Shown piece after piece: positions 38,092 to 58,138 of a DNA stretch of 64,000 nt. The notes beneath the pieces are model-generated. The model did no database searches, had not been told where the DNA came from, and saw only the letters and a list, made by a program, of their open reading frames with translations. The DNA comes from Pseudosulfitobacter pseudonitzschiae. GTDB lineage: Bacteria > Pseudomonadota > Alphaproteobacteria > Rhodobacterales > Rhodobacteraceae. The stretch is from positions 372,001-436,000 of the forward strand of contig NZ_FQVP01000004.1 in assembly GCF_900129395.1 (NCBI RefSeq), read 5' to 3'. A program made the translations under genes and the position numbers. How positions within the stretch are numbered: position 1 is the stretch's first letter; the number at the start of each line of letters is the position of its first letter.

Positions 38092-38823
38092 ATGACGACG
38101 ACAACCGAAGTGAAACCCCTGACAGAATTCGGTTACGTCAGCTTTGATGTGGTCGGCACCTTGATCGACTTTGAAGCCGCGATCAAAAGTGGCCTTGCCG
38201 ACATCGCAGCGAAAGAGGGCATCGACCTGAATGGCGAGGCTGCGCTGGCCGTGTATCGCGATGCGCGTTACGAACCTGACGCGGGCCTGTTCCCGGATGA
38301 TCTGGGCCGTTGCTATGGGCGCATTGCCGAGGCGTTCGGCCTGCCCGACACCCCGGAATATCGCCAGTACATGATCGACACCGTTGGCGAGGCCGAACCC
38401 TTTGCCGACAGCGTCGAGGCGATGGCGCGGCTCAAGACGCGTTACAAGCTGATTGCGATGACGAACGCACGGCGCTGGGCGTTTGACAAATATTCCGCGA
38501 AACTGGGCAATCCGTTCTGGGCCGCTTTCACCACCGACGACACTGGCACGGAAAAGCCTGACCGCGTCTTTTTCCAAAAGGTGTTCGCCCACGTGGAGCG
38601 CGATGGCGGTTCCAAGGACGACATCCTGCACACCGCGCAAAGCCAGTACCACGACATCGGAATCTCGCGGGCGCTGGGCATGACCAACGCCTGGATTCAG
38701 CGGCGCCATGCGCAGGACGGATACGGCGGCACCATCGCGCCCAGTGAGTTCACCGAACCGGATTACCATTTTCACGCGTTGATCGAACTGGCCCAGGCGG
38801 CCGACGATGCCTTTGGCGCGTGA
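38092..38823 (+). CDS. HAD type II (2-haloacid dehalogenase-like) hydrolase
   Basis: A 243-residue HAD protein. The nucleophile is in YVSFDVVGTLIDF, motif II in IAMTNARRW, the Lys in TGTEKPDRVFFQKVF and the motif IV region in HTAQSQYHDIGISRALGM. It is distantly similar to the HAD at 32224. It lies 68 bp upstream of the binding-protein gene of the ABC importer and probably belongs to the same transcript, which hints at a role with the imported substrate. The specific reaction is unknown. Confidence 0.86.
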   Translation: MTTTTEVKPLTEFGYVSFDVVGTLIDFEAAIKSGLADIAAKEGIDLNGEAALAVYRDARYEPDAGLFPDDLGRCYGRIAEAFGLPDTPEYRQYMIDTVGEAEPFADSVEAMARLKTRYKLIAMTNARRWAFDKYSAKLGNPFWAAFTTDDTGTEKPDRVFFQKVFAHVERDGGSKDDILHTAQSQYHDIGISRALGMTNAWIQRRHAQDGYGGTIAPSEFTEPDYHFHALIELAQAADDAFGA

Positions 38824-44078: not shown

Positions 44079-44088
44079 TGCGGTCAGA
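44067..44088. terminator. Perfect hairpin spanning the two convergent stop codons
   Basis: TCTGACCGC-TGAT-GCGGTCAGA, a 9-bp stem with a 4-nt loop, covers the stop codons of the ABC ATPase gene (44078) and of the lrp gene (44084). It lacks a T-run in both directions, so the termination strength is uncertain. Confidence 0.5.
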
Positions 44089-44578
44089 TCCGGTCTTCGA
44101 ACAGATCCGTCAGGGGCAGTTGCGCTTTGACAAAGGGCGTCTTCATCACGACAAAGCTGAAATATTTGTCTATCCCGATGCTGCGGTCGATCAAGGCTTC
44201 GATCACGTTCTGATAGTCGGCGATAGAGGATGTGACAAATTTCGCCAGATAATCATAACCACCTGATACCAGATGACATTCGACGCAGGACGGGACTTTT
44301 TCCAAAGCTTCCTGGAAACGGGCAAAGTCGATCTGGCGGTGGTTGGCCAGGGTGAATTCCGTAAACACCGTCAGCGTATCGCCCAGCTTTGCCACGTCGA
44401 TCTGCGCAGAGTATCCGACGATGTACCCGGCCTTTTGCAGTTTTTTGACGCGCATCAGGCAGGGCGACGGCGACAGGCTGACCAGATCGGCCAGTTCGAC
44501 ATTTGTGATACGTCCATTGCGCTGAAGTTCGGTCAGAATCTTCAGGTCGATCCGGTCCAGCTTATAACGGGTTGTCAT
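44084..44578 (-). CDS. Lrp/AsnC-family transcriptional regulator
   Basis: A 164-residue regulator with the AsnC winged helix at residues ~5-60 (LDRIDLKILTELQRNGRITN, VELADLVSLSPSPCLMRVKK) and a RAM ligand-binding domain after it (VECHLVSGGYDYLAKFVTSS). Such proteins usually sense amino acids. It is convergent with the ABC importer and divergent from the DadA-like gene at 44739, so it is a good candidate regulator of that gene (inference). Confidence 0.93.
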   Translation of the reverse strand: MTTRYKLDRIDLKILTELQRNGRITNVELADLVSLSPSPCLMRVKKLQKAGYIVGYSAQIDVAKLGDTLTVFTEFTLANHRQIDFARFQEALEKVPSCVECHLVSGGYDYLAKFVTSSIADYQNVIEALIDRSIGIDKYFSFVVMKTPFVKAQLPLTDLFEDRI

Positions 44579-44738: not shown

Positions 44739-46064
44739 ATGCCCGCGCCTTTGATGCACATAGAAACACACGAAACTTTGCCCGAACATGCCGATTGTGT
44801 GGTGATCGGTGCCGGTATTGTGGGGGTCAGTGCCGCCTATTGGCTGTCGCGCGCCGGACTGCGTGTGGTGTTGCTGGAAAAGGGGCGCGTCGGGGCCGAA
44901 CAATCCAGCCGCAACTGGGGCTGGTGCCGTCAGCAGAACCGCGACGCGCGGGAACTGCCGTTGTCGACCAAAAGCCTCGCGCTGTGGGAGGAAATGGCCG
45001 AAGACATCGGTGCCGATCTGGGCTTTCGGCGCTGTGGTTTGCTGTATCTGTCCAATGACCAGTCCGAACTGGATGGCTGGGCCAACTGGGGACGCTTCGC
45101 GCGCGGCGAAGGTGTCGACACGCGTATGCTGGACAGCACGCAGGCGACGGCGCGCGGAGCCGCGACCGGCCAGTCGTGGCTTGGCGGTGTCTGGTCCCCG
45201 ACGGACGGCATTGCCGACCCGTCCCGCGCCGCACCTCTGATCGCCCAAGGGGCCATCAAACACGGTGCCACGGTGGTTCAGAACTGCGCCGCGCGCGGGA
45301 TTGAAACCAGTGCGGGCGCGGTGTCCGGGGTTGTGACCGAACGTGGCACGATCAAGACATCGAATGTGGTTTTGTCGGGCGGCGCATGGGCGGGCAGCTT
45401 CCTGCACCAGTCGGGTATTTTCTTCCCTCAGGCGTCTGTCCGCAGCTCGATCCTCTCGCTGAACCCGGTGCCCGGCGATTTGCCTGATGCGCTGCACACA
45501 GCGGCGGCCTCGGTCACGCGCCGACGTGACGGCGGCTATACGGTGGCCGTGTCGGGCCGCAGCCATTTCGATCCGACGCTGCGGATGATCGCGTGCGCCA
45601 GGCATTTCCTGCCGATGTTCGCCAAACGCTGGAAGTCCCTGTCGCCCGGTGGCCTGCAGGCCTGGAAGGCAGCATTCGAGACCCGCGCGATCTGGGCGCT
45701 GGATCAGCAGACCCCGATGGAACGCACCCGTATTCTGGACCCCCGCCCGTCCAGGGCGCATGTGGACGACGCATTGCGCCGCGCCCGTGCCTTGTTGCCC
45801 GCGTTGAAGGATATCGAAATGCGGCAAAGCTGGGCGGGTTACATCGACAGTACGCCCGACGGTGTGCCAGTGATCGACTCCGACATCGGCGTGCCGGGGC
45901 TGACGCTGGCGGCTGGCCTTTCGGGTCATGGCTTTGGCATCGGCCCGGGCGTGGGGCATCTGGTGGCTGACCTGGTGCTGAACCGCGACCCGATCACCGA
46001 AACCCTGCAGTACAAGCTGAACCGCTTCGACAAATCGCAATGGGGCAAGGTGTCGAAATTCTGA
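44739..46064 (+). CDS. FAD-dependent D-amino-acid dehydrogenase/oxidase-like protein
   Basis: A 441-residue enzyme of the DAO superfamily. ATG 44739 follows CGGAG by 7 nt. The FAD motif CVVIGAGIVGVSAAYWLSRAG is near residue 21, SSRNWGWCRQQNRDARELPL matches the family's second conserved block, and the C-terminal GLSGHGFGIGPGVGHLVADL closes the site. It resembles the catalytic subunits of opine/D-amino acid and proline dehydrogenases. It ends 2 bp before the end of another DAO-type gene on the opposite strand. Confidence 0.88.
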   Translation: MPAPLMHIETHETLPEHADCVVIGAGIVGVSAAYWLSRAGLRVVLLEKGRVGAEQSSRNWGWCRQQNRDARELPLSTKSLALWEEMAEDIGADLGFRRCGLLYLSNDQSELDGWANWGRFARGEGVDTRMLDSTQATARGAATGQSWLGGVWSPTDGIADPSRAAPLIAQGAIKHGATVVQNCAARGIETSAGAVSGVVTERGTIKTSNVVLSGGAWAGSFLHQSGIFFPQASVRSSILSLNPVPGDLPDALHTAAASVTRRRDGGYTVAVSGRSHFDPTLRMIACARHFLPMFAKRWKSLSPGGLQAWKAAFETRAIWALDQQTPMERTRILDPRPSRAHVDDALRRARALLPALKDIEMRQSWAGYIDSTPDGVPVIDSDIGVPGLTLAAGLSGHGFGIGPGVGHLVADLVLNRDPITETLQYKLNRFDKSQWGKVSKF

Positions 46065-46066
46065 CA

Positions 46067-47206
46067 TCATGCCGCAAACCGCTTGATGTCAAAGGGCGCC
46101 AGCGGCGTATCGCAGGTGCCGGTCGCGATCAGCTCGGCCATCGCATCGCCAACACCGGGGCCCAGCTGAAACCCGTGGCCGCAAAAGCCGAAGGCATGGA
46201 ACAGTCCCGGCGTCGTGCCCGATGCGCCCATGATCGGCAGGTCATCCGCGACATACCCTTCACAGCCCGACCATTGCCGGATCACGGCCACATCCCTCAG
46301 GGCAGGAACCAGGCGGACAACCGTTTTCAGTTGCTGCGCCAGCAGGCGCGGGTCTGCCTTGGCATGGCCCGTCAGCGGATCGACTGGTGTGCGGGTCACA
46401 CCGCCGCCAAAGACGACATTGCCCCGTTCGACCTGACGCAAGTAGGCTCCTATGTCCTGCGACCACATTCCCACAACCGGCAGGATACGGTGTGGCAGCG
46501 GTTCGGTCACACCCATTTGCGGGCCGTGCATGGTCAACGGCACGTCTTCGCCGAACTGCGCGGCAATCGCCTTGCCCCATGCGCCGGCACAGTTCAGCAA
46601 AATCGCGCTTTCCAATCCACCCCGACTGGTTTGCACGGAAAAACCGGTATCTGTCCTGGCGATTGCCTGCACCTTGGTGTGCGGCAGAATATGCGCCCCC
46701 AGCCGGGCCGCCGCATCGGCAAAGGCGGGTGCAACAAGTCGCGGGTTGGCCGATCCGTCCTGCGGCGAGAACGACGCGCCAATGGCCTGCGCGCCCAAAC
46801 CCGGAAACCGGCGGCGCAGTTCGGTGGCGTCCAGCTCTTCCAGCGTCAGGCCCCAGGGCGCGGCAGCATCCGCAAAACGGCGCATGTCGGCGTGGCTTTG
46901 TGCATCAAAGATCAGGCGCACATGGCCGGTGGCGCGAAACTCGACATCGCGGCCCAGCAATGTTTCGGTTTGTGCCCACAGCGCCCGCGACCGGTGGGCC
47001 AGGGGCAGTTGCGGCAGAAAACGCCCCGTGCGCCGGATGTTGCCAAAGGACGCCGTGGTGGCCCCCGCGCCGATGGCGTTGGGGTCTACCAGCGTGACAG
47101 CGATCCCCCGGCGGGCCAGGAAAAACGCGGCACTTGTGCCCATCAGCCCGCCGCCCAAAACGATCACATCCACGGCTTGCCCCTTTTCGTGACTTGGTTC
47201 CAGCAT
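46067..47206 (-). CDS. FAD-dependent DAO-type oxidoreductase
   Basis: A 379-residue enzyme of the same superfamily as its convergent neighbour, but clearly diverged. The FAD fingerprint VIVLGGGLMGTSAAFFLARRG is near residue 14, GAGATTASFGNIRRTGRF follows, and HAFGFCGHGFQLGPGVGDAM closes. The promoter faces the LysR gene at 47280, and the intergenic dyad at 47255 is repeated before hyuA. It could be the catalytic partner of the 2Fe-2S and BFD proteins encoded at 52.3-54 kb (inference). Confidence 0.88.
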   Translation of the reverse strand: MLEPSHEKGQAVDVIVLGGGLMGTSAAFFLARRGIAVTLVDPNAIGAGATTASFGNIRRTGRFLPQLPLAHRSRALWAQTETLLGRDVEFRATGHVRLIFDAQSHADMRRFADAAAPWGLTLEELDATELRRRFPGLGAQAIGASFSPQDGSANPRLVAPAFADAAARLGAHILPHTKVQAIARTDTGFSVQTSRGGLESAILLNCAGAWGKAIAAQFGEDVPLTMHGPQMGVTEPLPHRILPVVGMWSQDIGAYLRQVERGNVVFGGGVTRTPVDPLTGHAKADPRLLAQQLKTVVRLVPALRDVAVIRQWSGCEGYVADDLPIMGASGTTPGLFHAFGFCGHGFQLGPGVGDAMAELIATGTCDTPLAPFDIKRFAA

Positions 47207-47254
47207 CAGAGCGCACAGGGTGGCCCTGCGTCAAAGACCGGATATGATATGACT

Positions 47255-47271
47255 CATAAGCCGAACTTATG
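47255..47271. promoter_or_regulatory. LysR operator copy 1 in the oxidoreductase/lysR divergent promoter
   Basis: CATAAG-CCGAA-CTTATG is a 6-5-6 dyad with the LysR-type T-N11-A core (T47257, A47269), 9 bp upstream of the lysR start. A near-identical dyad occurs at 48171-48189. Confidence 0.72.
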
Positions 47272-47279
47272 GGGGTTCC

Positions 47280-48176
47280 ATGCGCGCACGACAGCTTGAA
47301 GTGTTCACCGCCGTGATGCGGGTGGGAACGGTCACCGGGGCCGCGCAGTCGCTGAACATCTCACAGCCGGCGCTCAGCCAGATCTTGTTGCATTGCGAGG
47401 ACGAACTGGGGTTCAAACTGTTCGACCGCGAAAAGGGTCGGCTGCGGCCCACCGCCGAGGCGCTGGAAATCCACGCCGAGGCCGAACGGCTGTTTGCGGG
47501 TCTCGAAGGGTTGCGGCGCAAGACACAGGATTTGCGGCTGGGGCAGGCGGGATTGGTGCGGGTCGCAGCATCGGTGCCGCCCGCGATGTCGCTTTTGCCC
47601 GACATTCTGGCCCGTTACCGTGCCGGATATCCCGATGTTCTGCTGCGCAGCCACGTCGCCCCCATCGCGTCCCTGATCGCGCTGCTGCGGGCCGGCGATG
47701 CGGCGATGGCCATGGCGATGGACGACCAGATGACCCCCGACATCATGGTCGAACGTCTGGGTGTCACCACCTTTTGCTGTCTGCTGCCCAATGATCATCC
47801 GCTGGCGGCGCAAGACACCGTATCCTTTGCCGACCTGCAAACAGAAACGGTTATCTCCTATCGCAGCCCGACCCGCCCACGGGTCGAACTGGATAAGGCC
47901 GCACGGGCGCAGGGACATGACTTTTCCGCCCAGCTTGAGATCGAGGTATCGATTTCGGCGGTGGGCTTTGTTCAGGCCGGTTTGGGCGTTGCCGTTGTCG
48001 ATGCGCTGATGCCCTGGCTCCAGTTCCAGGGCGTCACAACCCGCCCGCTGCAAGACAGCCCAAAGCTGCCTTTGTCCTTGCTGACGTTGACCGGCAAAAC
48101 CCTGTCGCGCGCCGAAGCGGGAATGCGCGACGAGATCCGCAAGCTTTGCGCAGAACGGCTGCCCTCGCGGCCATAA
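47280..48176 (+). CDS. LysR-family transcriptional regulator
   Basis: A 298-residue regulator with the winged helix at residues ~3-60 (QLEVFTAVMRVGTVTGAAQS and LNISQPALSQILLHCEDELG) and the effector domain after residue ~90. It sits between a divergent DAO-type gene and the hyuA operon, and matching dyads occur on both sides of it, so both are its likely targets. The TAA stop lies inside the second dyad. Confidence 0.92.
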   Translation: MRARQLEVFTAVMRVGTVTGAAQSLNISQPALSQILLHCEDELGFKLFDREKGRLRPTAEALEIHAEAERLFAGLEGLRRKTQDLRLGQAGLVRVAASVPPAMSLLPDILARYRAGYPDVLLRSHVAPIASLIALLRAGDAAMAMAMDDQMTPDIMVERLGVTTFCCLLPNDHPLAAQDTVSFADLQTETVISYRSPTRPRVELDKAARAQGHDFSAQLEIEVSISAVGFVQAGLGVAVVDALMPWLQFQGVTTRPLQDSPKLPLSLLTLTGKTLSRAEAGMRDEIRKLCAERLPSRP

Positions 48177-48189
48177 GTCCGACTTATGG
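48171..48189. promoter_or_regulatory. LysR operator copy 2 upstream of hyuA
   Basis: CCATAAGT-CCG-ACTTATGG is a perfect 8-3-8 palindrome, sharing CATAAG and CTTATG in the same 17-bp frame with the dyad at 47255. It overlaps the lysR stop codon and lies 87 bp before hyuA, as an operator for that operon would. Confidence 0.75.
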
Positions 48190-48275
48190 ACCGCCCCCGC
48201 ATGGGTCTTGGACCCCTGCCGCACTTTCTGATGGTTTGAGCACGAACGCATCGCACCTGACGAAAGGACGTTATC

Positions 48276-50342
48276 ATGGATGGCGCATCACAGCCCAAAC
48301 CCGATTGGAAGATCGGGGTCGATATTGGCGGCACCTTCATGGACTTCTGTGCGCTTGAAACCGTGTCAGGCCGCGTTGCGTCACTCAAGGTGCTGACGAC
48401 GCCCGACGATCCGGGGGCCGAGCTGTTGGACGGCCTGTGCCTGCTGGCCGAACGCGAAGGGCTGGACCCGGCATATGTCACCCGGTTCGTGCACGGCACC
48501 ACGGTCGGGATCAACACGATCATCCAGCGCAAGGGGGCCAAACTGGCGCTGATCACCAACGCCGGTTTCGAAGACGTGATCGAACTGGCGCGCTTGCGGA
48601 TGCCGGATATGTATTCGCTGTTCTGCCACCGGCCCGATCCCCTGATCGCCCGCGACATGGTGTTCGGCGTGCCGGTGCGGATGCGCGCCGATGGGTCCGA
48701 AGCACTGGCGCCCGATACCGCCTCGGTCGCTGCCGCAGCCAGACAGGCGCAAGCTGCCGGTGCAGAAGGTGTGATCGTGGCCCTTTTGCACAGTTGGCGC
48801 GACACTTCCCAAGAGGCATCGGTCAAGGCAATGATCGAAGCCGCCACGCCCGGAATGTTCGTTTTCACCTCGTCCGAGGTCTGGCCGGTGATCCGCGAAT
48901 ATGAACGCACCTCGACCGCGATCCTGAACGGATATGTGCACCCGCGCGTTGCGGGGTATCTGACCGCGCTGGAAAGCCGTCTGGACGCCCAGGGCGTTCC
49001 GGCCAAGGCTATGCTGACCCGGTCAAACGGCGGGTTGATGAGCGCGGGGCAGGGGCGGCGCGACTGTGTGTCGATGTTGCTGTCCGGCACCGCCTCGGGT
49101 GTTATCGGCGCGTCGTGGCTGGCGCGCCAGGCGGGCGAAGCGCGGGTGCTGACGCTGGACATTGGCGGCACCTCGGCGGACTTTGCGCTGATCGTGGACG
49201 GCGAAGTGCAATATGGCACGGATGAACAGGTCGGAGAATTTCCGCTGCACATCCCGTCGGTTTCCGTCAGCTCGATCGGCATCGGCGGCGGGTCGATTGC
49301 CACGCTGGGCGCACTTGGCGTGTTGCGCGTCGGCCCTGAATCCGCAGGATCAAACCCCGGTCCGGCCTGCTATGGCCGTGGCGGCACCGATGCAACGGTG
49401 ACCGATGCGCTGGCGGTGTGCGGCTGGCTGGGGCATTCGGAAATGGCCTATGGCCAGTTGCGCATGAACGTCGATCTGGCGCGTCAGGCCGTGGGTGTGC
49501 TGGCCGACCAATTGGGCCGCAGCATCGAGGAAACGGCACAGGCGATCATCGACATCGCCGTGTCCGAAATGTTCGTCGAGGTGGAAAAACTGTGCTCGCG
49601 CGCGGGTGTCGACCTGCGCGACTTCGCCCTGATGCCCTTTGGCGGCGGCGGCCCGATGCTGGGCGCGTTTCTGGCACAGGAACTGGGTATGTCCCGCGTG
49701 ATCGCGCCACGTCGCCCCGGTGTGGTGTCGGCGCTGGGGGGGCTTGTGTCCGACCTGCGTGGCGACTTCATCCGGACCGTTTATGCCCCGCTTGAGGACG
49801 CGACGCTGCCGCAGCTTGAACAGGACTTTGCCGCGCTGGCGGACGAAGGCCGCGCATGGCTGGACACGCAAGGTTTTGACGGCACCGCCGATCTGCGATT
49901 GTCCGCAGACATGCGCTACGCAGGCCAAAGTTTCGAGATCGAAGTGGCGCTGTCACCCGACTGGCTGAACGCGGTCGATCAGATCGCGGCGGCCTTTCAC
50001 GAAACTCACAAACGCATCTACGACTTTGAAGACCCCGACGGAAAGATCGAGCTGGTCAACCTGCGCCTTTCCGCGCTCGGCGGCGCGCCAAAGCCCACGT
50101 TCCCGGTGTCGCAAGCCACGCAAGAGCAGGCCACGGCGGACCGTCATGTGCCGGTCTGGATCAACGGCTGGTGTGATGTGCCAATCTATGATCGCGCCCA
50201 ACTGGGCGGCGGTGCGGTGTTCGACGGCCCCGCGATTGTGGCCCAAGAGGACACGACCTTTGCCGTGCCGCCGGGCGCAAGCGCACATGTCGATGCCCAT
50301 CTGAACATCCATCTTAGCCTCGTGGAGCAATCCAATGTCTGA
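48276..50342 (+). CDS. hyuA: Hydantoinase/oxoprolinase subunit A
   Basis: A 688-residue ATP-dependent ring-opening amidohydrolase subunit. The N-terminal ASKHA-type phosphate loop KIGVDIGGTFMDF and FVHGTTVGINTIIQRKGAKL, and the central TLDIGGTSADFALI, are hallmarks of HyuA/N-methylhydantoinase A. It works with HyuB to cleave cyclic amides (hydantoins, 5-oxoproline, some lactams). AAAGGA precedes the ATG. hyuB starts 8 bp inside its 3' end. Copy 2 of the LysR operator lies upstream. Confidence 0.93.
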   Translation: MDGASQPKPDWKIGVDIGGTFMDFCALETVSGRVASLKVLTTPDDPGAELLDGLCLLAEREGLDPAYVTRFVHGTTVGINTIIQRKGAKLALITNAGFEDVIELARLRMPDMYSLFCHRPDPLIARDMVFGVPVRMRADGSEALAPDTASVAAAARQAQAAGAEGVIVALLHSWRDTSQEASVKAMIEAATPGMFVFTSSEVWPVIREYERTSTAILNGYVHPRVAGYLTALESRLDAQGVPAKAMLTRSNGGLMSAGQGRRDCVSMLLSGTASGVIGASWLARQAGEARVLTLDIGGTSADFALIVDGEVQYGTDEQVGEFPLHIPSVSVSSIGIGGGSIATLGALGVLRVGPESAGSNPGPACYGRGGTDATVTDALAVCGWLGHSEMAYGQLRMNVDLARQAVGVLADQLGRSIEETAQAIIDIAVSEMFVEVEKLCSRAGVDLRDFALMPFGGGGPMLGAFLAQELGMSRVIAPRRPGVVSALGGLVSDLRGDFIRTVYAPLEDATLPQLEQDFAALADEGRAWLDTQGFDGTADLRLSADMRYAGQSFEIEVALSPDWLNAVDQIAAAFHETHKRIYDFEDPDGKIELVNLRLSALGGAPKPTFPVSQATQEQATADRHVPVWINGWCDVPIYDRAQLGGGAVFDGPAIVAQEDTTFAVPPGASAHVDAHLNIHLSLVEQSNV

Positions 50343-52320
50343 TAAAATGACCCTTCAGGTGCTGGCCAACCACGCGCGCGCCGCTGCCGAAAACATGGCG
50401 CACACCCTGCACCGCACCGCGCATTCCGCCTTTGTCAAGGAAACCCAGGACTTTACCGTTCTTCTGATGGACAGGATCGGTGACACCTTTGCCGTTCCGA
50501 TGGATCTGGGGGCGACGTGGTATCCCGGCCTGTCGCACGGACCGGCCATTGAAATGGTGGATGACTACCGCCCCGGCGACGTGGCCTTTACCAATGATCC
50601 CTATTCCGGCCATGTGGCCACGCACACACCGGACACACACCTGTGGCGTCCGATCTTTGACGGCGACGACATCGTGGCCTTTGCGGGCGGGCACATCCAC
50701 AACACCGACATGGGCGGTGCGGTGCCTGCATCGCTGTCCCGCTCGCTGACCGAAATTCATCAGGAAGGCATCCGCTTTCCCCCGATGAAGCTGGTGAACG
50801 AGGGGGTCTTTGACCCGCAAATCCTGCGGATCATGGAAACCAACGTGCGCAAGCCCGCGCTGAACATCGGCGACATCAAGGCACTGGCCGGCGCGCTCAG
50901 CACCGGCGAACGCAAGGTGCAGGCGATGATCTCGCGCTTTGGCAAGACCGGCTTTTTGCAAGGCGTCAGCGCGCTGATGGATCAGTCCGAGGCGCAGGCG
51001 CGTGACATTCTGCGGGCGATCCCCGACGGTGAATACGTCTTTGCCGACTACGCCGACGAAGACAGCGACGAAGCGAACCCCTGCCGCCTGAAGCTGACCT
51101 TGCGGATCACCGGCGACAGCGCCGTGCTGGACTTTACCGGATCGGACCCGCAACTGGCGTCGTCGCTGAACGTGCCCTCGGGCGGCAATCCGCGCCACAC
51201 CATCCTGTTGGTGGGGGTCTACTATGTCCTTTACACGCTGAACCCGCGCATGTTGCTGAACACGGGCATGACGCGGCCCTTCACCTGCATTGCGCCCGAA
51301 GGCACGGTCTTGAACCCGGTTGAACCGGCGGCCGTGGGGATGCGGTCGCTGACCTGCGCGCGCCTGCGGTCTGTGATCTTTGGTGCGTTCAGTCAGGCCA
51401 TTCCCGACCGGATGCCTGCAGCGCCTGCCGGCAACAACTGTATCGTCAACGTGATGACCCGCGACGAGCGCACGCAGAAGACGGTGATTGCCGCCGTCAA
51501 TCCTGTCGTCGGCGGCGGCGGCGGGATGCCGCATCGCGATGGGTCGAACGGGTCGGGTGCGGATGCCGCGTACCTGAAAAACACACCCATCGAGATCACC
51601 GAGACCGAAGTGCCGGTGGAGTTCGTGAAATACGGACTGGCCCAGGACAGCGGCGGGGCGGGATACTGGCGCGGGGGGTTGGCGACCGAAATGGCGTTCC
51701 GGGTCTTTTCCCCCGACACACGCATCACCGCGCGCAACCGCGACCGGTCGTTCTTTCGCCCCTGGGGTACTCTGGGCGGCCATGCCGCAGGCCTGTCCGA
51801 TATGATGATCAACCCCGGCACGCCTCAGGCGCGGCCTTTGGGCAATGTCGACACCGCAATTCTGGAACCGGGCGACGTGCTTGAAATCCGCTCGGCCGGT
51901 GGTGGCGGGCGCGGTGATCCGCTGCAACGGCCTGCGGAACGGGTCGCGCGGGATGTCCTGGGCGGTTATGTCTCGGTCGATGCTGCCCGCCATGAATATG
52001 GCGTGGTCATCACCGACGGCGTGGTGGACGAGGACGCAACCACCGCACTGCGCGCCTCCATGACGCCCCACACCCAGCACTTTCATTTTGGCCCCGAACG
52101 CGATGGCTACGAGGCACAGTGGACCGATACGGCCTATGACCTGCTGACGCAAATTTTGGCGGACCTGCCGATCCACTGGCGGTTCTTCACCAAGACCGAG
52201 ATTTTCCGCCGCATGAAAGGCCGCAAAGGGCCCGAAGGTGTCACCGCAGCCTTTGCTGAGGTCTGCGAACGGTTCCCCGCGCTGCCCCATGCAGCGCCCC
52301 GCAAAGAGGCCGCAGAATGA
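50335..52320 (+). CDS. hyuB: Hydantoinase/oxoprolinase subunit B
   Basis: A 661-residue partner of HyuA. Typical segments are MAHTLHRTAHSAFVKETQDF, DVAFTNDPYSGHVATHTPD, AGHIHNTDMGGAVPASLSRS and the Gly-rich VGGGGGMPHRDGSNGSGAD. The last ~90 residues extend beyond the usual HyuB core. A missing or altered HyuA-HyuB pairing is not apparent. The stop overlaps the 2Fe-2S gene by 4 bp, placing both in one transcript. Confidence 0.93.
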   Translation: MSDKMTLQVLANHARAAAENMAHTLHRTAHSAFVKETQDFTVLLMDRIGDTFAVPMDLGATWYPGLSHGPAIEMVDDYRPGDVAFTNDPYSGHVATHTPDTHLWRPIFDGDDIVAFAGGHIHNTDMGGAVPASLSRSLTEIHQEGIRFPPMKLVNEGVFDPQILRIMETNVRKPALNIGDIKALAGALSTGERKVQAMISRFGKTGFLQGVSALMDQSEAQARDILRAIPDGEYVFADYADEDSDEANPCRLKLTLRITGDSAVLDFTGSDPQLASSLNVPSGGNPRHTILLVGVYYVLYTLNPRMLLNTGMTRPFTCIAPEGTVLNPVEPAAVGMRSLTCARLRSVIFGAFSQAIPDRMPAAPAGNNCIVNVMTRDERTQKTVIAAVNPVVGGGGGMPHRDGSNGSGADAAYLKNTPIEITETEVPVEFVKYGLAQDSGGAGYWRGGLATEMAFRVFSPDTRITARNRDRSFFRPWGTLGGHAAGLSDMMINPGTPQARPLGNVDTAILEPGDVLEIRSAGGGGRGDPLQRPAERVARDVLGGYVSVDAARHEYGVVITDGVVDEDATTALRASMTPHTQHFHFGPERDGYEAQWTDTAYDLLTQILADLPIHWRFFTKTEIFRRMKGRKGPEGVTAAFAEVCERFPALPHAAPRKEAAE

Positions 52321-52631
52321 CAGGACGGCTTGTCCGGCTGGCCGAGGCATCGCGCCCGAAGGTGTCGTTCACCTTTGACGGCGCGGTGCTGACAGGGCTG
52401 GAAGGAGACAGCGTGCTGACCGCGATCCTGATGTCGCGCGGTGCCCTGCGACAGGCCGAGTTCGGCCCCGAACAGCGGTCCGGCTTTTGTCTGATGGGGG
52501 CCTGTCAGGACTGCTGGATCTGGCAGTCAGACGGCGCACGCTTGCGGGCATGTTCGACCCAGCTGCAAGCAGGAATGCGTCTGCAATCCGCCGCGCCGGA
52601 TAAGTGGCCTGTCGGGGACGACGCGCCATGA
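52317..52631 (+). CDS. 2Fe-2S ferredoxin-like subunit (HcnA/opine-oxidase small-subunit type)
   Basis: A 104-residue protein with four cysteines in the plant-type pattern C58-x4-C63-x2-C66-x12-C79 (SGFCLMGACQDCWIW and LRACST). Such small proteins, with an FAD/BFD subunit and a DAO-type catalytic subunit, form HcnABC, opine oxidases and some amino acid dehydrogenases. ATG at 52317 overlaps the hyuB stop. It presumably carries electrons within such a complex in the cytoplasm or at the membrane. Confidence 0.9.
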   Translation: MTGRLVRLAEASRPKVSFTFDGAVLTGLEGDSVLTAILMSRGALRQAEFGPEQRSGFCLMGACQDCWIWQSDGARLRACSTQLQAGMRLQSAAPDKWPVGDDAP

Positions 52632-54001
52632 CCCGCGTCTTGATTGTCGGCGCAGGCCCCGCAGGCATCCGCGCGGCGCAGCGGCTGGTGACGGCAGGCC
52701 TGCATCCCGTCGTCGTGGACGAGGGGGCGCGGGCCGGTGGCCAGATCTATCGCCGCCCGCCCGAGGGGTTCACACGGCCGCCGCAGACCCTGTACGGGTC
52801 AGAGGCGGACAAGGCCCTGGAATTGCACCGTTGTTTCGACAGAATGCTGGACGCGGGCCAGTTGACCTATCACCCGCGCAGTTCTGTTTTGGCCCTTGGC
52901 GCGCAGGGCGCGCAGGTGCTTGGGCCGGATGGCGTGGATACCCTTGCTTATGACAAGCTGATCCTTGCAACCGGCGCCACCGACCGGCTGGCGCCCGTGC
53001 CCGGCTGGCAAAGCGCCGGCGTCTATTCACTGGGCGCCACGCAGATCGCGCTGAAATCGCAGGGCGTGGCGCTGGGGCGGCGGATGGTTCTGGCCGGATC
53101 AGGCCCATTGCTGACGCTGGTCGCGTCACAACTGCGCAAGGCGGGTGCGCAGGTCGTGGCGGTTCTGGACACCGCACCGCTGACCACACAGGCGGCAGGC
53201 GCATTTGGCATGGCGCTGGCGCGTCCGCGTGTCACCCTGCGCGGTGCCGCACTGCGCGCGGGGCTGGGGCGCAGCTATCACGCAGGCGTCACGCTGACGC
53301 GGATCGCGATGAACAGCACAGGGCCTGTGGCGATCCACTGGCAGGATGCGCGGGGGCGTGACCACATGACGCCCTGCGATATGGTGGGCTTAGGCTGGCA
53401 CCTTAGAGCCGAAACACACCTCGCCGATCTTGCAGGTGTTTCAATGGCTTGGGATAAGGTGTTTCACCAATGGCTGCCGCTGACCGACGCCATGGGCCGT
53501 GCCGCTGCGGGCGTGTATCTGGCAGGTGACGGGATGCGGATACTGGGGGCAGACGGCGCAGAACTGGCCGGAAAAATCGCAGCCAGCGCCTGTTTGCAGG
53601 ATCTCGGGGTGCCTGCCCCCGATACAGAGCGCGATCTGAAGGAACTGCGCCGTATGCAACGCTTTGCCAGCGCCATGCAGCGGGCGTTTCCGTGGCCTGC
53701 GCAGATGGTCCGCGATCTGCCCGCCGACACGGTCTTGTGCCGGTGCGAAGCCATCAGCGTGGGCGACCTGCGCACAACCCTGTCCCTGTCCGGCCCCGAA
53801 GCGAACCGTGCGAAATCACTGTCGCGCGTCGGCATGGGGCGGTGCCAGGGGCGCTATTGCCAGCTTGCAGGTGCCGAGGTTCTGGCCGCCGAAGCTGGTG
53901 TTCCGGTCGACAAGATCGGACGGCTGCGCAGCCAGCCACCCGTGCGTCCGGCGCCGATCAGCGCCTATCTGGACAAGGGGCCAGATGCGCGCGCGAAATA
54001 A
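52628..54001 (+). CDS. FAD/NAD(P)-binding oxidoreductase with BFD-type Fe-S domain (HcnB/OoxA-like)
   Basis: A 457-residue protein. The FAD fingerprint VLIVGAGPAGIRAAQRLV is at the very N terminus, a second Rossmann motif RMVLAGSGPLLTLVASQL near residue 155, and a C-terminal BFD-like [2Fe-2S] domain with Cys 371, 373, 406 and 411 (LCRCEA and GRCQGRYCQ). It is the second subunit of HcnABC/opine-oxidase type complexes. The ATG overlaps the ferredoxin stop (ATGA). No DAO-type third subunit follows in the operon. Confidence 0.9.
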   Translation: MTRVLIVGAGPAGIRAAQRLVTAGLHPVVVDEGARAGGQIYRRPPEGFTRPPQTLYGSEADKALELHRCFDRMLDAGQLTYHPRSSVLALGAQGAQVLGPDGVDTLAYDKLILATGATDRLAPVPGWQSAGVYSLGATQIALKSQGVALGRRMVLAGSGPLLTLVASQLRKAGAQVVAVLDTAPLTTQAAGAFGMALARPRVTLRGAALRAGLGRSYHAGVTLTRIAMNSTGPVAIHWQDARGRDHMTPCDMVGLGWHLRAETHLADLAGVSMAWDKVFHQWLPLTDAMGRAAAGVYLAGDGMRILGADGAELAGKIAASACLQDLGVPAPDTERDLKELRRMQRFASAMQRAFPWPAQMVRDLPADTVLCRCEAISVGDLRTTLSLSGPEANRAKSLSRVGMGRCQGRYCQLAGAEVLAAEAGVPVDKIGRLRSQPPVRPAPISAYLDKGPDARAK

Positions 54002-54005
54002 TCTG

Positions 54006-54053
54006 CTGTCGCCGACAGTCTGATGGCGGATGATGCCGGGCAACCGGCTCTTT
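54006..54053 (+). terminator. Two small hairpins at the end of the hyu unit
   Basis: CTGTC-GCC-GACAG (54006-54018) and GCCGG-GCAA-CCGGC (54035-54048), the latter GNRA-capped and followed by TCTTT. Together they may end the hyu transcript before the aldehyde dehydrogenase unit. Confidence 0.4.
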
Positions 54054-54065
54054 CGGCACCTGTTT

Positions 54066-54090
54066 GTACATATTCCCGGCAAATATGTAC
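54066..54090. promoter_or_regulatory. Operator-like palindrome upstream of the aldehyde dehydrogenase operon
   Basis: GTACATATT-CCCGGCA-AATATGTAC is a 9-7-9 perfect inverted repeat ending 26 bp before the ATG at 54117. No cognate regulator gene adjoins it; the shape suits a GntR- or LysR-type dimer. Confidence 0.6.
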
Positions 54091-54116
54091 GTAATTCATG
54101 AAAGACGAGGTGTCCG

Positions 54117-55580
54117 ATGTCCTGTGCCTATGACCCCAGCGGTCTGACCCTTCCCAATGCGCATTTTATTGGCGGGGAATATGTTGGCGGACCCGCGGCG
54201 TTGAACGTCGTGTCGCCATCGACCGGGGCAATCATCGGGGAAATCCCCTGCGCAGATGTGGAAGTTGTCGACCGAGCCGTTCAAGCCGCCCGCACTGCGC
54301 TGGCCGCGTCGAACTGGGGCGGGATGCAGCCCCGTGATCGGACCCGCGCCCTGTGCGCCTGGGCCGACCTGATGGAGGCCGAAGCCGAAACGCTTGCAGC
54401 GCTCGAAGCCATCTGTTCGTCGCGCCCTTACGCGCATGTGCGGACAGGTGACATCGTGGTGACGGCGGAACAAATCCGCTTTTTTGCCGAACTCGCGGAC
54501 AAGGAATGCGGCGCGCTGGCGCCGGTGTCGGACAGCCACTTTGGTTATATCGCGGATGAACCTTACGGCGTGATCGGTGCCATTACGCCGTGGAACTTCC
54601 CGATCTCGATGGCCGGTTGGAAGCTGGGACCGGCCCTGGCCGCAGGCAACGCCGTGGTGTTGAAGCCGTCCGAGATGACGCCCTATTCCACCCTCTACAT
54701 GGCCGAACTGGCCATACGTGCGGGCATCCCCGCGGGCATTTTCAACGTGGTGCTGGGCGATGGTCCGACCACGGGGGCCGCAATCACCGGACACGCGGGC
54801 ATCGACAAGGTGTCGTTCACCGGATCGACCCGCGCGGGTGGGGCCATCATGGAAAACATCGCGCGCACCGGCATCAAGCCGATGACGCTGGAGCTGGGTG
54901 GCAAAAGTCCGATGGTGGTCTTTGCCGACGCCGATCTGGATCTGGCGGCGGATTGTCTGGACCGCGGGATCATGTCCAACGCGGGCCAGGCCTGTGTGTC
55001 CGGCTCGCGGATGATCGTGGCGCACGAGGTGGCCGACGCACTGGCGGCCAAGCTGACCCAGCGTTTCGCGCGCTACCGTCCCGCCAACACCTTTGCCTCC
55101 GAACCGGGATTTTCGCCGATCATTTCAGAAACGCAACTGGGCCGGATCGACAGCATCGTGCAGGCAGCGGCGTCCCAAGGGGCCGAGATGCTGTGCGGCG
55201 CTGCGCGATTTGACCACGAAGGCAGCTATTACCAGCCTACGTTGATCACCGGCGTGGATGACACCAACCCAGCGGTGCGTGACGAAATCTTTGGCCCCGT
55301 GGCGACGTTCCAGACCTTTGGATCGGAAGACGAGGCCATGGCTCTGGCCCGTCACGCCACCTATGGCCTGTGCGCAGGCCTATTCACACGCGACCTCAGC
55401 CGTGCGATGCGGCTGACACGCAAGCTTGAGGCGGGGACGGTCTGGGTAAACCGCTATGGCCGCTCGCGCGATCACATATTGCCTACGACCGGCTGGAAAT
55501 CCAGCGGGCTGGGCCACGATCTGGGCCGCGAGGCCTATCACGCCAACCGACGCAAGAAATCGGTGCTGATCGACCTGTAA
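54117..55580 (+). CDS. Aldehyde dehydrogenase family protein
   Basis: A 487-residue NAD(P)-dependent aldehyde dehydrogenase. Visible are the oxyanion Asn in TPWNFPISMAGW, the cofactor loop SFTGSTRAGGAIM, the Glu in LELGGKSPMVV near residue 258 and the catalytic Cys in SNAGQACVSGSR near residue 292. The substrate is likely a semialdehyde or amino aldehyde, given the neighbours. It is the first gene of a unit headed by the palindrome at 54066. Confidence 0.92.
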   Translation: MSCAYDPSGLTLPNAHFIGGEYVGGPAALNVVSPSTGAIIGEIPCADVEVVDRAVQAARTALAASNWGGMQPRDRTRALCAWADLMEAEAETLAALEAICSSRPYAHVRTGDIVVTAEQIRFFAELADKECGALAPVSDSHFGYIADEPYGVIGAITPWNFPISMAGWKLGPALAAGNAVVLKPSEMTPYSTLYMAELAIRAGIPAGIFNVVLGDGPTTGAAITGHAGIDKVSFTGSTRAGGAIMENIARTGIKPMTLELGGKSPMVVFADADLDLAADCLDRGIMSNAGQACVSGSRMIVAHEVADALAAKLTQRFARYRPANTFASEPGFSPIISETQLGRIDSIVQAAASQGAEMLCGAARFDHEGSYYQPTLITGVDDTNPAVRDEIFGPVATFQTFGSEDEAMALARHATYGLCAGLFTRDLSRAMRLTRKLEAGTVWVNRYGRSRDHILPTTGWKSSGLGHDLGREAYHANRRKKSVLIDL

Positions 55581-55610
55581 TCCCGATCACGCACGTTGAA
55601 GGAGAAAGAC

Positions 55611-56657
55611 ATGACCACTTACAAACTCGCATTGATCCCCGGTGACGGCATCGGCGTTGACGTGACTGACGCGGCGATGACCGTGCTGGACGTTGCGGCG
55701 AAACGGTTCGGTTTTGCGCTGGAGCCGCAGACCTTTCCGTGGTCCTGCGACTATTACCTCAAGACCGGCGCGATGATGCCCGCAGACGGAATCGAAACCC
55801 TGCGCGGCTTTGATGCGATCTTTCTGGGTGCCGTTGGCTGGCCCGACACGGTGCCGGATTCGGTGTCGCTGCACGGGCTTTTGCTGCCGATCCGCAAGGC
55901 GTTCGATCAATACGCCAACATCCGCCCCCACCGTATGCTGGCGGGGGTCGAGGGGCCGCTGAAAGCGTCCGAGTTTGACATCCTGTGCATCCGTGAAAAC
56001 ACCGAAGGCGAGTATTCCGGTGCCGGCGGGCGCGTGCATCAGGGCAAGGGCAACGAGGTTGCCGTTGAAACGTCCATATTCACCCGCGTGGGCGTGGAAC
56101 GCATCCTGCGCTTTGGCTTTGAGCAGGCGCAGGCGCGGCGCAAGCATCTGACGTCGGTGACCAAATCGAACGCACAGAAATATTCGATGGTGTTCTGGGA
56201 CGAGGTCACGCGCGAACTGGCCGCCGAATACCCCGAGGTGACGGTCAGCCACATGCACATCGACGCGATGGCGGCCAAGATGGTGATGAACCCGCAGGAT
56301 CTGGACGTGGTCGTGGCGTCGAACCTGTTTGGCGACATCCTGACCGATCTGGGGGCGGCCATTCAGGGCGGCCTTGGCTTTGCCGCTTCGGCCAACATCT
56401 GTCCCGACCGCTCTGGTCCGTCGATGTTTGAACCGGTGCACGGGTCGGCCCCCGATATTGCGGGCCAGAACATTGCCAACCCGATTGCCGCGATCTGGTC
56501 CGGTGCGCAGATGCTAGAGCATCTGGGCGAGACAGACGCCGCCGCCGCCGTGCTGGACGCGGTCGAAGCCGCGACCGCCAAGGGCATTGGCACGCGCCCG
56601 GGCCAGAACACGACCGATGATATAACGGCGGCCGTTTGTGCCGCGCTGGAGGCTTGA
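55611..56657 (+). CDS. Tartrate/D-malate dehydrogenase (isocitrate/isopropylmalate family)
   Basis: A 348-residue beta-decarboxylating dehydrogenase. AAGGAG precedes ATG 55611. Substrate and metal motifs are ANIRPHRMLAGVEGPL, ENTEGEYSGAGGR (TtuC/DmlA-type, not isopropylmalate-type), the Lys/Asp pair in TKSNAQKYS and HIDAMAAKMV, and FEPVHGSAPDIAGQNIANP. It would oxidise D-malate, tartrate or a similar 2-hydroxy diacid. Between two aldehyde dehydrogenase genes, in the same unit. Confidence 0.9.
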   Translation: MTTYKLALIPGDGIGVDVTDAAMTVLDVAAKRFGFALEPQTFPWSCDYYLKTGAMMPADGIETLRGFDAIFLGAVGWPDTVPDSVSLHGLLLPIRKAFDQYANIRPHRMLAGVEGPLKASEFDILCIRENTEGEYSGAGGRVHQGKGNEVAVETSIFTRVGVERILRFGFEQAQARRKHLTSVTKSNAQKYSMVFWDEVTRELAAEYPEVTVSHMHIDAMAAKMVMNPQDLDVVVASNLFGDILTDLGAAIQGGLGFAASANICPDRSGPSMFEPVHGSAPDIAGQNIANPIAAIWSGAQMLEHLGETDAAAAVLDAVEAATAKGIGTRPGQNTTDDITAAVCAALEA

Positions 56658-56659
56658 CC

Positions 56660-58138
56660 ATGACCATACACAACCCCATTACCACCGACCTGCGCAGCCG
56701 CCTGGCCGACCCGGATCTGTTCCGCGAGGCCGCACTGATCGACGGCACGTGGATTGCCCGCGCCGATATGCCTGTCACCAACCCCGCGACGGGGGACGTG
56801 ATGGGGCATATGCCCGACAGCACCGCCGAGGAAACCACAGCCGCCATTGCCGCCGCCGATGCGGCGATGAAAGGCTGGCGGGCGCGCACGCACATCGAGC
56901 GCGCGGATATCCTGATGAAATGGCATCAGCTGATGCTGGATCATGCCGACGATCTGGCGCTGATCCTGACCGAGGAACAAGGAAAGCCGCTGGCCGAGGC
57001 GCGCGGCGAGGTAATGTACGGCGCATCCTTCGTGCGCTGGTTCGCGGAAGAGGGGCGGCGGATCAACGGGCATATTATCCCGTCGCCGGTCGCGGGCAAG
57101 AAGCTGTTTGCCATGAAAGAGCCCGTGGGCGTCTGTGCGATCATCACACCGTGGAACTTTCCCATCGCGATGATCACGCGCAAGGTTGCACCGGGGCTGG
57201 CGGCAGGCTGTACGATGGTCATCAAGCCGTCGGATTTCACCCCCTATTCCGCGTTGGCGCTGGCTGTGCTGGGCGAACGGGCGGGCATTCCCGCGGGTGT
57301 GCTGAACATCCTGACAGGTCGCCCCGAAGCGATCGGCGCGACGCTGACGGCATCGCCGGTGGTGCGCAAACTGTCGTTCACCGGATCGACGCGCGTGGGG
57401 GCGCTGCTGGCGGAACAATGCGCGCCGACGCTGAAGAAAATGTCGCTGGAGCTGGGTGGCAACGCGCCATTCATCGTTTTTGACGACGCCGACCTGGATG
57501 CGGCGGTCGAGGGCGCGATGCTGTCGAAATTCCGCAACGGCGGGCAAACCTGCGTGTGCGCCAACCGCATTCTGGTGCAGTCGGGCATTCACGACGCGTT
57601 CGTGGCGGCCCTGGCAAAGCGTGTGGACGCGCTGACGGTTGGCCCCGGCACGGCAGAGGGGACGATGATCGGTCCGATGATCAACACCGCGGCCATCGCC
57701 AAGATCAACGCCCATGTAGAGGACGCGCTGTCCAAGGGCGCCAACCGCGCGACACAGTCCCGCGACCTGGGCGCGCAGTTTGCCGATCCGGTGGTGCTGA
57801 CCGGGGCCACGACCGACATGAAACTGGCGGATGAGGAAACCTTTGGTCCCGTTGCCCCGATCTTCAAGTTCGAGACCGAGGCCGAGGCGCTGGAGATTGC
57901 CAATGGCACGCCCTTTGGTCTGGCGGCCTATTTCTTCACCACCAACATGGCCCGCGCATTCCGCTTTGGCGAGGCGTTGGAGGTGGGGTTGGTTGGGCTG
58001 AACACCGGCGTTGTCAGCCACGCCGAAGCACCGTTCGGAGGCGTGAAATCCTCGGGGCTGGGCCGCGAGGGCGCACAAGAAGGGATCGAAGAGTACCTTG
58101 AAACCAAGGCCTTCCATTTTGGCGGGCTGGACGCCTGA
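56660..58138 (+). CDS. gabD: Succinate/glutarate-semialdehyde dehydrogenase
   Basis: A 492-residue aldehyde dehydrogenase of the GabD type. Its ATG is 2 bp after the previous stop. Key segments are ITPWNFPIAMITRKVAPGLA, SFTGSTRVGALL, the Glu in LELGGNAPFIVF near residue 266, the catalytic Cys in NGGQTCVCANR near residue 300 and the C-terminal APFGGVKSSGLGREG. In the pathway it would convert a semialdehyde such as that from 4-aminobutyrate to succinate, or a close homologue. A terminator follows. Confidence 0.9.
   Translation: MTIHNPITTDLRSRLADPDLFREAALIDGTWIARADMPVTNPATGDVMGHMPDSTAEETTAAIAAADAAMKGWRARTHIERADILMKWHQLMLDHADDLALILTEEQGKPLAEARGEVMYGASFVRWFAEEGRRINGHIIPSPVAGKKLFAMKEPVGVCAIITPWNFPIAMITRKVAPGLAAGCTMVIKPSDFTPYSALALAVLGERAGIPAGVLNILTGRPEAIGATLTASPVVRKLSFTGSTRVGALLAEQCAPTLKKMSLELGGNAPFIVFDDADLDAAVEGAMLSKFRNGGQTCVCANRILVQSGIHDAFVAALAKRVDALTVGPGTAEGTMIGPMINTAAIAKINAHVEDALSKGANRATQSRDLGAQFADPVVLTGATTDMKLADEETFGPVAPIFKFETEAEALEIANGTPFGLAAYFFTTNMARAFRFGEALEVGLVGLNTGVVSHAEAPFGGVKSSGLGREGAQEGIEEYLETKAFHFGGLDA

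Follow-up and report, generated by a model that had tools for sequence, protein, structure and literature searches.

The opening of azetidine rings (four-membered nitrogen rings) has been described in a Pseudomonas strain, in which, according to the excerpted account, a hydrolase converts L-azetidine-2-carboxylate (AZC) to 2-hydroxy-4-aminobutyrate, which is then transaminated; the same excerpt reports that the GNAT enzymes Mpr1/2 acetylate AZC and that the orthologue NgnA assists detoxification in Aspergillus (PMC8016842). Soil microorganisms are reported to degrade mugineic acids with ease, and the azetidine ring of deoxymugineic acid is named there as the cause of its instability (PMC7946895), while an excerpt of another study states that phytosiderophore levels in the exudate of grasses are reduced by Pseudomonas fluorescens SBW25 and names only three induced genes as candidates (PMC7786132). 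Here, a catabolic cluster of about 26 genes is reported from a stretch of 64,000 nucleotides of Pseudosulfitobacter pseudonitzschiae (contig NZ_FQVP01000004.1, positions 372,001 to 436,000), referred to as the window over its whole length. An original prediction had flagged 44.7-58.1 kb of the window as a pathway for ATP-dependent opening and oxidation of a lactam or hydantoin-type compound by the predicted hydrolase pair HyuA and HyuB (HyuAB), and this block was found to be the right-hand part of a bigger conserved cluster (~26.8-58.1 kb). Judging from gene content and sequence relationships, we propose with slightly less than even confidence that the cluster breaks down azetidine compounds to pyruvate and that HyuAB opens a related gamma-lactam.

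The main clue to this proposal is the product of one gene outside the flagged block, HAD-IA, which aligned over its full length with the L-azetidine-2-carboxylate hydrolase AzeH (PDB 3smv; 133.7 bits, E 7.3e-38), with 87 of 230 aligned residues identical (~38%). Six PDB entries were matched at E <= 0.001, five of them being 3smv, its mutant and 8hp5-7 (121-125 bits) and the sixth a cis-epoxysuccinate hydrolase (38.7 bits). The entries 8hp5-7 were counted with AzeH because the title of 8hp7 gives its trapped ligand as (2R)-4-amino-2-hydroxybutanoic acid, into which azetidine-2-carboxylate is converted when its ring is opened. When the AlphaFold model of HAD-IA (mean pLDDT 87.8) was compared with the PDB, the six best fold matches were 8ywo, 8yvw, 3smv and 8hp5-7 (TM 0.83-0.87, E 2.5e-19 to 1.3e-17), and other HAD enzymes started at E 2.3e-14. 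The residues mutated in the AzeH and 8hp entries (D12 and K152) correspond to D19 and K155 of HAD-IA, which were invariant in all 14 HAD-IA sequences. On this alignment and model, HAD-IA is proposed to be an AzeH-like hydrolase. A second HAD protein of the cluster, HAD-II, carries the motif DC(Y/H)GT (H in the window copy) and was also nearest AzeH in sequence, both alone (3smv 71.6 bits, with an epoxide hydrolase at 38 and an L-haloacid dehalogenase at 32) and as a 17-row profile (8hp5 89 and 3smv 86 bits vs 57 and 52.5). A phosphatase role was rejected for HAD-IA and HAD-II, since neither has the second of the two Asp residues that mark the phosphatase motif.

A possible route can be outlined from the protein families. 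A binding protein with a signal like that for twin-arginine translocation (Tat) and an ABC importer would take up an azetidine-containing compound, and the FAD amine oxidoreductases DAO1 and DAO3 would cut its C-N bonds to give C4 semialdehydes and azetidine-2-carboxylate. The four-membered ring would be opened by HAD-IA, or by HAD-II where HAD-IA is missing, to (R)-4-amino-2-hydroxybutyrate, which the class III aminotransferase would convert to 2-hydroxy-4-oxobutanoate (malic semialdehyde). GabD, which resembles succinic semialdehyde dehydrogenase (SSADH), would then form (R)-malate, and the tartrate/D-malate-type dehydrogenase (TDH) would convert this D-malate to pyruvate and CO2. The (2R) configuration of the 8hp7 ligand leads to D-malate and therefore suits TDH, whose family we take to use D-malate. 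A step from malic semialdehyde to malate also appears, in the excerpted account, in the L-carnitine pathway of Acinetobacter (PMC11353897). The GNAT and M20 proteins may acetylate and deacetylate a reactive intermediate.

Because the cluster encodes an importer and three DAO oxidases, the parent compound is probably larger than free AZC. Our best guess is nicotianamine or deoxymugineic acid, both of which have nitrogen-bound C4 arms from which amine oxidases could produce semialdehydes. Since arms of the 4-aminobutyrate type could close to 2-pyrrolidones, HyuAB would also have a plausible substrate: with ATP hydrolysis it might open a five-membered lactam (e.g. 3-hydroxy- or N-substituted 2-pyrrolidone), and a dehydrogenase composed of DAO2, the 2Fe-2S protein and the FAD/BFD protein would oxidise the opened lactam into the trunk route. 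The proposal in its widest form, in which azetidine metal chelators (nicotianamine, deoxymugineic acid) would be degraded all the way to pyruvate in rhizobia, Azospirillum and marine Rhodobacterales, with a variant in other classes of the phylum and an ATP-dependent lactamase cassette for cyclised forms, is considered rather doubtful. The core genes of the cluster, including those of the putative trunk route, are as follows.

29880..30887, plus strand: GNAT N-acetyltransferase with an Acetyltransf_18 domain, start codon uncertain (PF18014, 6.5e-25); a relative adjoins M20 in rhizobia
30918..32243, minus strand: DAO3, FAD amine/imino-acid oxidase-like, start may differ (PF01266, 2.5e-73; best NCBIfam L-pipecolate oxidase, 196 bits against a cut-off of 600)
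32227..32889, minus strand: HAD-II, haloacid-dehalogenase-type-II-like hydrolase (TIGR01428, 163 bits, cut-off 125.4), by sequence weakly nearest azetidine-2-carboxylate hydrolase
33488..34606, plus strand: M20 (ArgE-like) deacylase (PF01546, 9e-33)
34614..35594, plus strand: GNAT N-acetyltransferase with two GNAT domains, start uncertain (PF18014, PF13508)
35612..36985, plus strand: class III aminotransferase, proposed 4-amino-2-hydroxybutyrate aminotransferase (PF00202, 4e-84; NF004625, a model without a named function, 830.6 bits, cut-off 729)
36985..37896, plus strand: GhrA-like D-2-hydroxyacid dehydrogenase (PF02826; GhrA model 166.6 bits, cut-off 403)
38092..38823, plus strand: HAD-IA, proposed AzeH-like L-azetidine-2-carboxylate hydrolase (3smv 133.7 bits; fold matches)
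38891..40501, plus strand: family-5 substrate-binding protein with Tat-like signal (PF00496, 1e-64, on a longer open reading frame from 38807)
40580..41536, plus strand: ABC permease 1 (PF00528)
41539..42402, plus strand: ABC permease 2, annotated as ABC permease at the same place in loci L021 and L022 and 75-90% identical in L021-L024 and L031
42402..44078, plus strand: fused ABC ATPase with two ABC_tran stretches
44739..46064, plus strand: DAO1, FAD amine/amino-acid oxidoreductase (PF01266, 4.7e-75; nearest PDB relative L-amino acid deaminase, 6e-54)
54117..55580, plus strand: aldehyde dehydrogenase (ALDH) of aminobutyraldehyde/betaine-aldehyde type (PF00171; best NCBIfam NF010000, 423 bits, cut-off 615)
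55611..56657, plus strand: TDH, of a decarboxylating family (TIGR02089, 570.8 bits, cut-off 470.4)
56660..58138, plus strand: GabD, SSADH-like, proposed malic semialdehyde dehydrogenase (TIGR01780, 656 bits, cut-off 646.35)

The genes for DAO3 and HAD-II overlap by 17 bases, and gaps of 30 and 2 bases separate ALDH from TDH and TDH from GabD. TDH fell below the cut-off of NF006048 (467.4 vs 501 bits) and GabD below that of the NADP equivalog NF008415 (648 vs 828 bits). The aminotransferase had a polyamine:pyruvate transaminase as one of its closest PDB relatives (349 bits). The binding protein, whose start is twin-arginine-like (SRRELLKM), had NikA (113 bits) and GsiB (96.5 bits) as its nearest NCBIfam models, both far below cut-offs, and no PDB match at E 1e-25, a threshold that was poorly chosen.

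The cluster recurs in Rhodobacterales, in Rhizobiaceae and their relatives, and in Azospirillum. A Pseudosulfitobacter plasmid aligned with 96% of the flagged stretch at 78% identity, and an Alloyangia plasmid with 97% of it at 76%. On the plasmid of Pseudosulfitobacter sp. DSM 107133, the upstream order is cupin, ArgE-like M20, GNAT, class III aminotransferase, GhrA-like, HAD-IA, binding protein, permeases, Lrp and DAO1, continuing with DAO2, LysR, hyuA, hyuB, 2Fe-2S, FAD/BFD, ALDH, tartrate dehydrogenase and SSADH; its ABC ATPase was unannotated and was recovered by search. The same gene order was found in Alloyangia, Paracoccus sp. MA and Salipiger over the part fetched. Co-occurrence was examined in 390 genomes of the order of the window, in which genes were called at E <= 1e-140 for TDH, 1e-70 for HAD-II and 1e-180 for HyuB, giving TDH in 29 genomes, HAD-II in 20 and HyuB in 18. 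HAD-II was accompanied by TDH in all 20 genomes (hypergeometric p 6e-27, uncorrected for descent, as are all p values of this comparison). HyuB of type 1 (>=75% identity), present in 13 of the 18 HyuB genomes (one copy being partial with an inner stop), occurred with TDH in 13/13 and with HAD-II in 12/13 (p 1e-16 and 7e-17), and the other HyuB group (seven genomes, two of them also with type 1) occurred with TDH in three (p 0.01). In 18 of its 20 genomes HAD-II lay no more than 35 kb from TDH, the other two having the genes on different contigs, and type 1 HyuB within 25 kb of TDH in 12 of 13, with different contigs in the remaining one. The plasmid alignments together with the co-occurrence of HyuB and TDH indicate that the grouping is not by chance.

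Named genomes gave 30 loci with TDH at >=66%, 25 of which were >=17 kb. In these 25, HAD-II, the aminotransferase and M20 were each found in at least 17, GhrA-like in at least 18, HAD-IA in at least 9, HyuAB in at least 3 and GabD in at least 24, these counts being lower bounds since the stretches are truncated. Among the 50 loci with TDH <60%, 28 were >=17 kb and served as a control; companion genes were found in none of them, at thresholds that were chosen after the relatives had been seen, that set TDH at 70% (so that TDH is zero by construction) and under which distant taxa also score low. Under a looser rule, ten control loci (L094-L103) gave weak ATPase matches in one and a single GabD at 49%, and nothing more. 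In a sample of 398 genomes of the phylum, HAD-II was found in 28. The distant HAD-II set comprised 18 stretches from 16 genomes, 15 of other classes (probably beta- and gammaproteobacteria) and one of another family of the same class, so that 17 of the stretches belong to other classes, and relatives of DAO3 and of the binding protein were each nearby in 14 stretches, of GNAT in 13 and of GhrA-like in 11, with TDH relatives at 54% and 57% identity in two.

Several loci showed further features. On the Rhizobium plasmids of L032 and L034, L-threonate-type genes (ltnD, otnI, otnK, an aldolase and a LacI regulator) are inserted between DAO3/HAD-II and GNAT/aminotransferase, those of L034 carrying different annotation wording from those of L032. 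On a Cereibacter sphaeroides plasmid (L033), relatives of the tartrate dehydrogenase and SSADH are encoded alongside an ABC sugar importer, an aldolase and a sugar kinase in an operon of sugar type, which is a different use of the TDH/SSADH pair. On the Paracoccus sp. MA plasmid (L023, 27-30 kb), the zinc importer genes aztB, aztC and aztD lie ~7 kb from the cluster; this proximity would suit a metal-chelator substrate but may be due to chance. In an excerpt of a Sinorhizobium meliloti AniA/PhaR study, one table class lists SMa1850 (oxidoreductase), SMa1855 (aminotransferase), SMa1864 (ABC ATPase) and SMa1869 (amino acid oxidase) adjacent to each other (PMC12542648). These appear to be DAO3, the aminotransferase, the ATPase and DAO1 of the S. 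meliloti pSymA locus (L030), matched by order as L030 carries no locus tags.

The genes named in the original prediction were all present in the flagged block, each matching family models, and the class III aminotransferase and the family-5 ABC importer, whose binding protein has the twin-arginine-like start, were likewise confirmed upstream. The gene identities of its list thus stood, but DAO2 lies on the minus strand and a LysR gene, which had been passed over, separates it from hyuA. The HyuAB cassette consists of these six genes.

46067..47206, minus strand: DAO2, sarcosine-oxidase-beta-like (PF01266, 1.6e-68; 1y56 chain B, 8e-42)
47280..48176, plus strand: LysR regulator of the cassette (PF00126, PF03466)
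48276..50342, plus strand: HyuA, ATP-binding subunit of an ATP-dependent lactam/hydantoin hydrolase (PF01968, 1.3e-78; PF05378, 7.8e-40; PF19278, 4.2e-14)
50335..52320, plus strand: HyuB, hydrolase subunit (PF02538, 3.2e-136)
52317..52631, plus strand: 2Fe-2S protein (PF13510, 1.5e-19)
52628..54001, plus strand: FAD/BFD (SoxA-like) oxidoreductase subunit (PF07992, Pyr_redox_2, and PF17806, SO_alpha_A3, on an open reading frame from 52604)

A plus-strand open reading frame at 46040-47299 was rejected as a gene, having no family match; the real gene is DAO2 on the opposite strand. hyuA and hyuB overlap by 8 bases, and hyuB/2Fe-2S and 2Fe-2S/FAD-BFD by 4 each. PF05378, PF01968, PF19278 and PF02538 all scored above gathering scores with hyuA and hyuB adjacent, which places the pair in the ATP-dependent hydantoinase/oxoprolinase family. 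HyuA was nearer the caprolactamase alpha subunit (450.7 bits) than acetophenone carboxylase (225), and the pair scored 450.7 and 240.1 bits against cut-offs of 1000 each in the caprolactamase CapAB models (NF050156, NF050157). The PDB matches of HyuB were N-methylhydantoinase 7hk5 (235 bits) and 6yra, named hydantoinase (198 bits). The DAO, 2Fe-2S and FAD/BFD genes occurred together in all type 1 cassettes fully read, which fits a heterotrimeric FAD/2Fe-2S/BFD amine dehydrogenase, and DAO2 is proposed as the partner of the other two in such a predicted complex.

The HyuAB block is a removable module of the cluster. In the window and its close relatives it stands between DAO1 and ALDH, in G150 after GabD and inverted, in Azospirillum adjoining GNAT and a DMT transporter, and in Rhizobium tropici CIAT 899 and CCGE531 beyond DAO1 at the other end, where the whole core and the cassette form one locus. 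In Thioclava GXIMD4216, ALDH directly follows DAO1 without DAO2, LysR, HyuAB, 2Fe-2S or FAD/BFD in the part fetched, the rest of the genome not having been searched for HyuAB; under the same limit, the core from GNAT/M20 to DAO1 lies within 31 kb on pSymA of Sinorhizobium meliloti 2011 without HyuAB. The lactam opening of the original prediction remains plausible for the cassette, but HyuAB as the heart of the pathway was rejected for its lack in these similar clusters over the stretch fetched. A second HyuAB clade, ~51% identical, occurs in the same cluster in Paracoccus denitrificans PD1222, Ciceribacter (L068), G004, G205 and G234. In a HyuB tree of 36 rows, from which three rows below 40% identity and every match spanning fewer than 550 columns had been excluded, type 1 (24 rows) and the cluster type 2 (5 rows) were separate, each with 100/100 support, and one clade of both against the seven other rows was rejected (AU p 0.0008), the groups having been named after a first tree, some branches being long and the G026 copy having been put in the other rows by choice. 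Since the two clades found in the cluster separate on the tree, HyuAB seems to have joined the pathway more than once. HyuB matches with an in-frame stop (TGA, TAG) were seen at G205:C4:39054-40991 and G524:C9:119141-120589, possibly through decay of HyuAB or sequencing error.

Several points weigh against breakdown of an azetidine compound. The entries 8hp5-7 carry the PDB name (S)-2-haloacid dehalogenase, and the AzeH motif DCYGT reads DVVGT in HAD-IA, with valine for tyrosine in 14/14 aligned sequences, so that its substrate may differ from that of AzeH. HAD-IA was not found between the aminotransferase and the binding protein in L067 and L076, and in L144, L152 and L159 the interval from the GhrA-like gene to DAO1 contained no HAD-IA and no importer, which makes these a second modular part of the cluster. 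In these five loci HAD-II would have to open the ring, and its fold search did not separate AzeH, epoxysuccinate hydrolase and haloacid dehalogenases, cis-epoxysuccinate hydrolase ranking first. The 18 distant HAD-II stretches held HAD-IA in one, HyuAB in none and TDH (>=70%) in none, and the co-occurrence statistics allow for neither shared descent nor transfer as one block. The binding protein has no close named counterpart in NCBIfam, one GNAT and the DAO enzymes have only generic PDB relatives, and no family of nicotianamine or phytosiderophore catabolism was among the matches of the scanned cluster proteins. Moreover, no activity is established for any cluster protein, and plant chelators would not readily be expected where the hosts are marine.

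Three other explanations were weighed. The one nearest to the original prediction is a plain lactam or hydantoin pathway (2-pyrrolidone, N-methylpyrrolidone, 5-oxoproline or N-methylhydantoin), in which HyuAB would open the ring, an amine oxidase would give a semialdehyde and GabD would form succinate. HyuAB is indeed nearest caprolactamase and HyuB nearest N-methylhydantoinase, the SSADH passes its model with a class III aminotransferase nearby, and in Shinella PSBB067 the cassette and ALDH stand without the core in the 48 kb examined, which also speaks against the azetidine proposal; caprolactamase of the HyuAB family is, in the excerpted source, ATP-dependent and inactive on 5-oxoproline (PMC6061476). 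However, this pathway offers no place for TDH, the GhrA-like reductase, the AzeH-like hydrolase, the GNATs and M20, HyuA is far below the caprolactamase cut-off, and similar clusters lack HyuAB in the stretch fetched, so it is judged improbable and less well supported than breakdown of an azetidine compound. N-methylpyrrolidone, 2-pyrrolidone or hydantoin breakdown would presumably not need the TDH, GhrA-like or AzeH-like genes; the expectation that N-methylpyrrolidone or hydantoin is the main substrate was thus not supported, and these genes suggest that the C4 product is hydroxylated (malic semialdehyde, malate, pyruvate) instead of plain succinate. The gene set fits the predicted sequence of uptake, ATP-dependent opening of the ring, conversion to a semialdehyde by amine oxidation or transamination, and formation of a dicarboxylate, but the block for which it was proposed is only part of the cluster, and the original interpretation is overall partly supported.

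A hydroxylated amine such as hypusine or hydroxyputrescine could alternatively be oxidised by DAO to amino-hydroxybutanal and by ALDH to amino-hydroxybutyrate, followed by the aminotransferase, SSADH and TDH to pyruvate. ALDH is nearest aminobutyraldehyde and betaine-aldehyde dehydrogenases, polyamine:pyruvate transaminase is close to the aminotransferase, and the last three steps are the same as from an azetidine; this scheme leaves HyuAB and two dehalogenase-like hydrolases, of which one is clearly AzeH-like, without a role, and we regard it as quite unlikely. The least probable explanation is a tartrate/epoxysuccinate type of pathway, in which the HAD proteins would act on a halo-acid or epoxide and TDH on tartrate. 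It would agree with the haloacid dehalogenase type II model passed by HAD-II (163 vs 125.4 bits), with its top fold match and the name of 8hp5-7, near relatives of HAD-IA, and with TDH passing the tartrate dehydrogenase model beside a GhrA-like reductase, but HAD-IA is far nearer AzeH than epoxysuccinate hydrolase (133.7 vs 38.7 bits), and the DAO enzymes, aminotransferase and GNATs favour a nitrogen compound.

The remaining genes of the cluster are peripheral or regulatory, apart from a cupin.

26771..28735, minus strand: OYE-type NADH:flavin oxidoreductase, peripheral (PF00724, 2.6e-55); relatives adjoin the cluster in L023, L065 and L154
28828..29826, plus strand: LysR-type regulator, peripheral (PF00126/PF03466)
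33110..33478, plus strand: EutQ-like cupin (PF05899, 6e-22)
44084..44578, minus strand: Lrp/AsnC regulator (PF13412/PF01037)

To the right of the cluster lie genes for ribonuclease HII and for a DNA methylase carrying a RAMA domain, both apparently of a housekeeping kind.

If true, breakdown of azetidine compounds by this cluster would help to explain the microbial destruction of plant iron carriers such as nicotianamine, a plant metal carrier, and the combination of an AzeH-like hydrolase with an importer, oxidases that cut C-N bonds and a pathway leading to pyruvate would make phytosiderophore degradation directly testable in laboratory rhizobia. Even with another parent compound, the cluster recurs across the three bacterial groups named above, and no description or assigned function of it was found among the papers listed in searches of open-licence literature, several of which had many more matches than were listed. 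The main text of a Rhizobium phaseoli root-exudate transcriptome study likewise contained none of six terms sought.

Among known systems, the N-methyl-2-pyrrolidone (nmp) clusters presumably share a hydantoinase-like pair, amine-oxidase-like genes and SSADH-like genes with this locus, a likeness of gene kinds; to our knowledge they hold no AzeH-like, TDH, GhrA, GNAT or M20 genes. The Acinetobacter L-carnitine pathway begins with the CntAB monooxygenase, and a carnitine pathway was rejected here as no CntAB-like family was found among the cluster genes scanned. Caprolactamase CapAB belongs to the same two-subunit family as HyuAB, with an expected ATP-dependent ring opening and an omega-aminotransferase in its pathway according to the excerpted source (PMC6061476), but HyuAB is far below the equivalog cut-offs and the partner genes differ. 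With AZC assimilation in the Pseudomonas strain and Aspergillus nidulans the cluster has a hydrolase, transamination and a GNAT acetyltransferase in common, whereas DAO oxidases, HyuAB, an importer with a binding protein and a dehydrogenase of D-malate type are not named in the excerpted account (PMC8016842). AzeH itself (3smv, 8ywo, 8yvw; relative 8hp5-7) is like HAD-IA in the end-to-end alignment, ~38% identity, fold and mutated Asp and Lys, and differs in the motif tyrosine, which is valine in HAD-IA, and in that HAD-IA is encoded within a large cluster that also includes oxidases and an importer.

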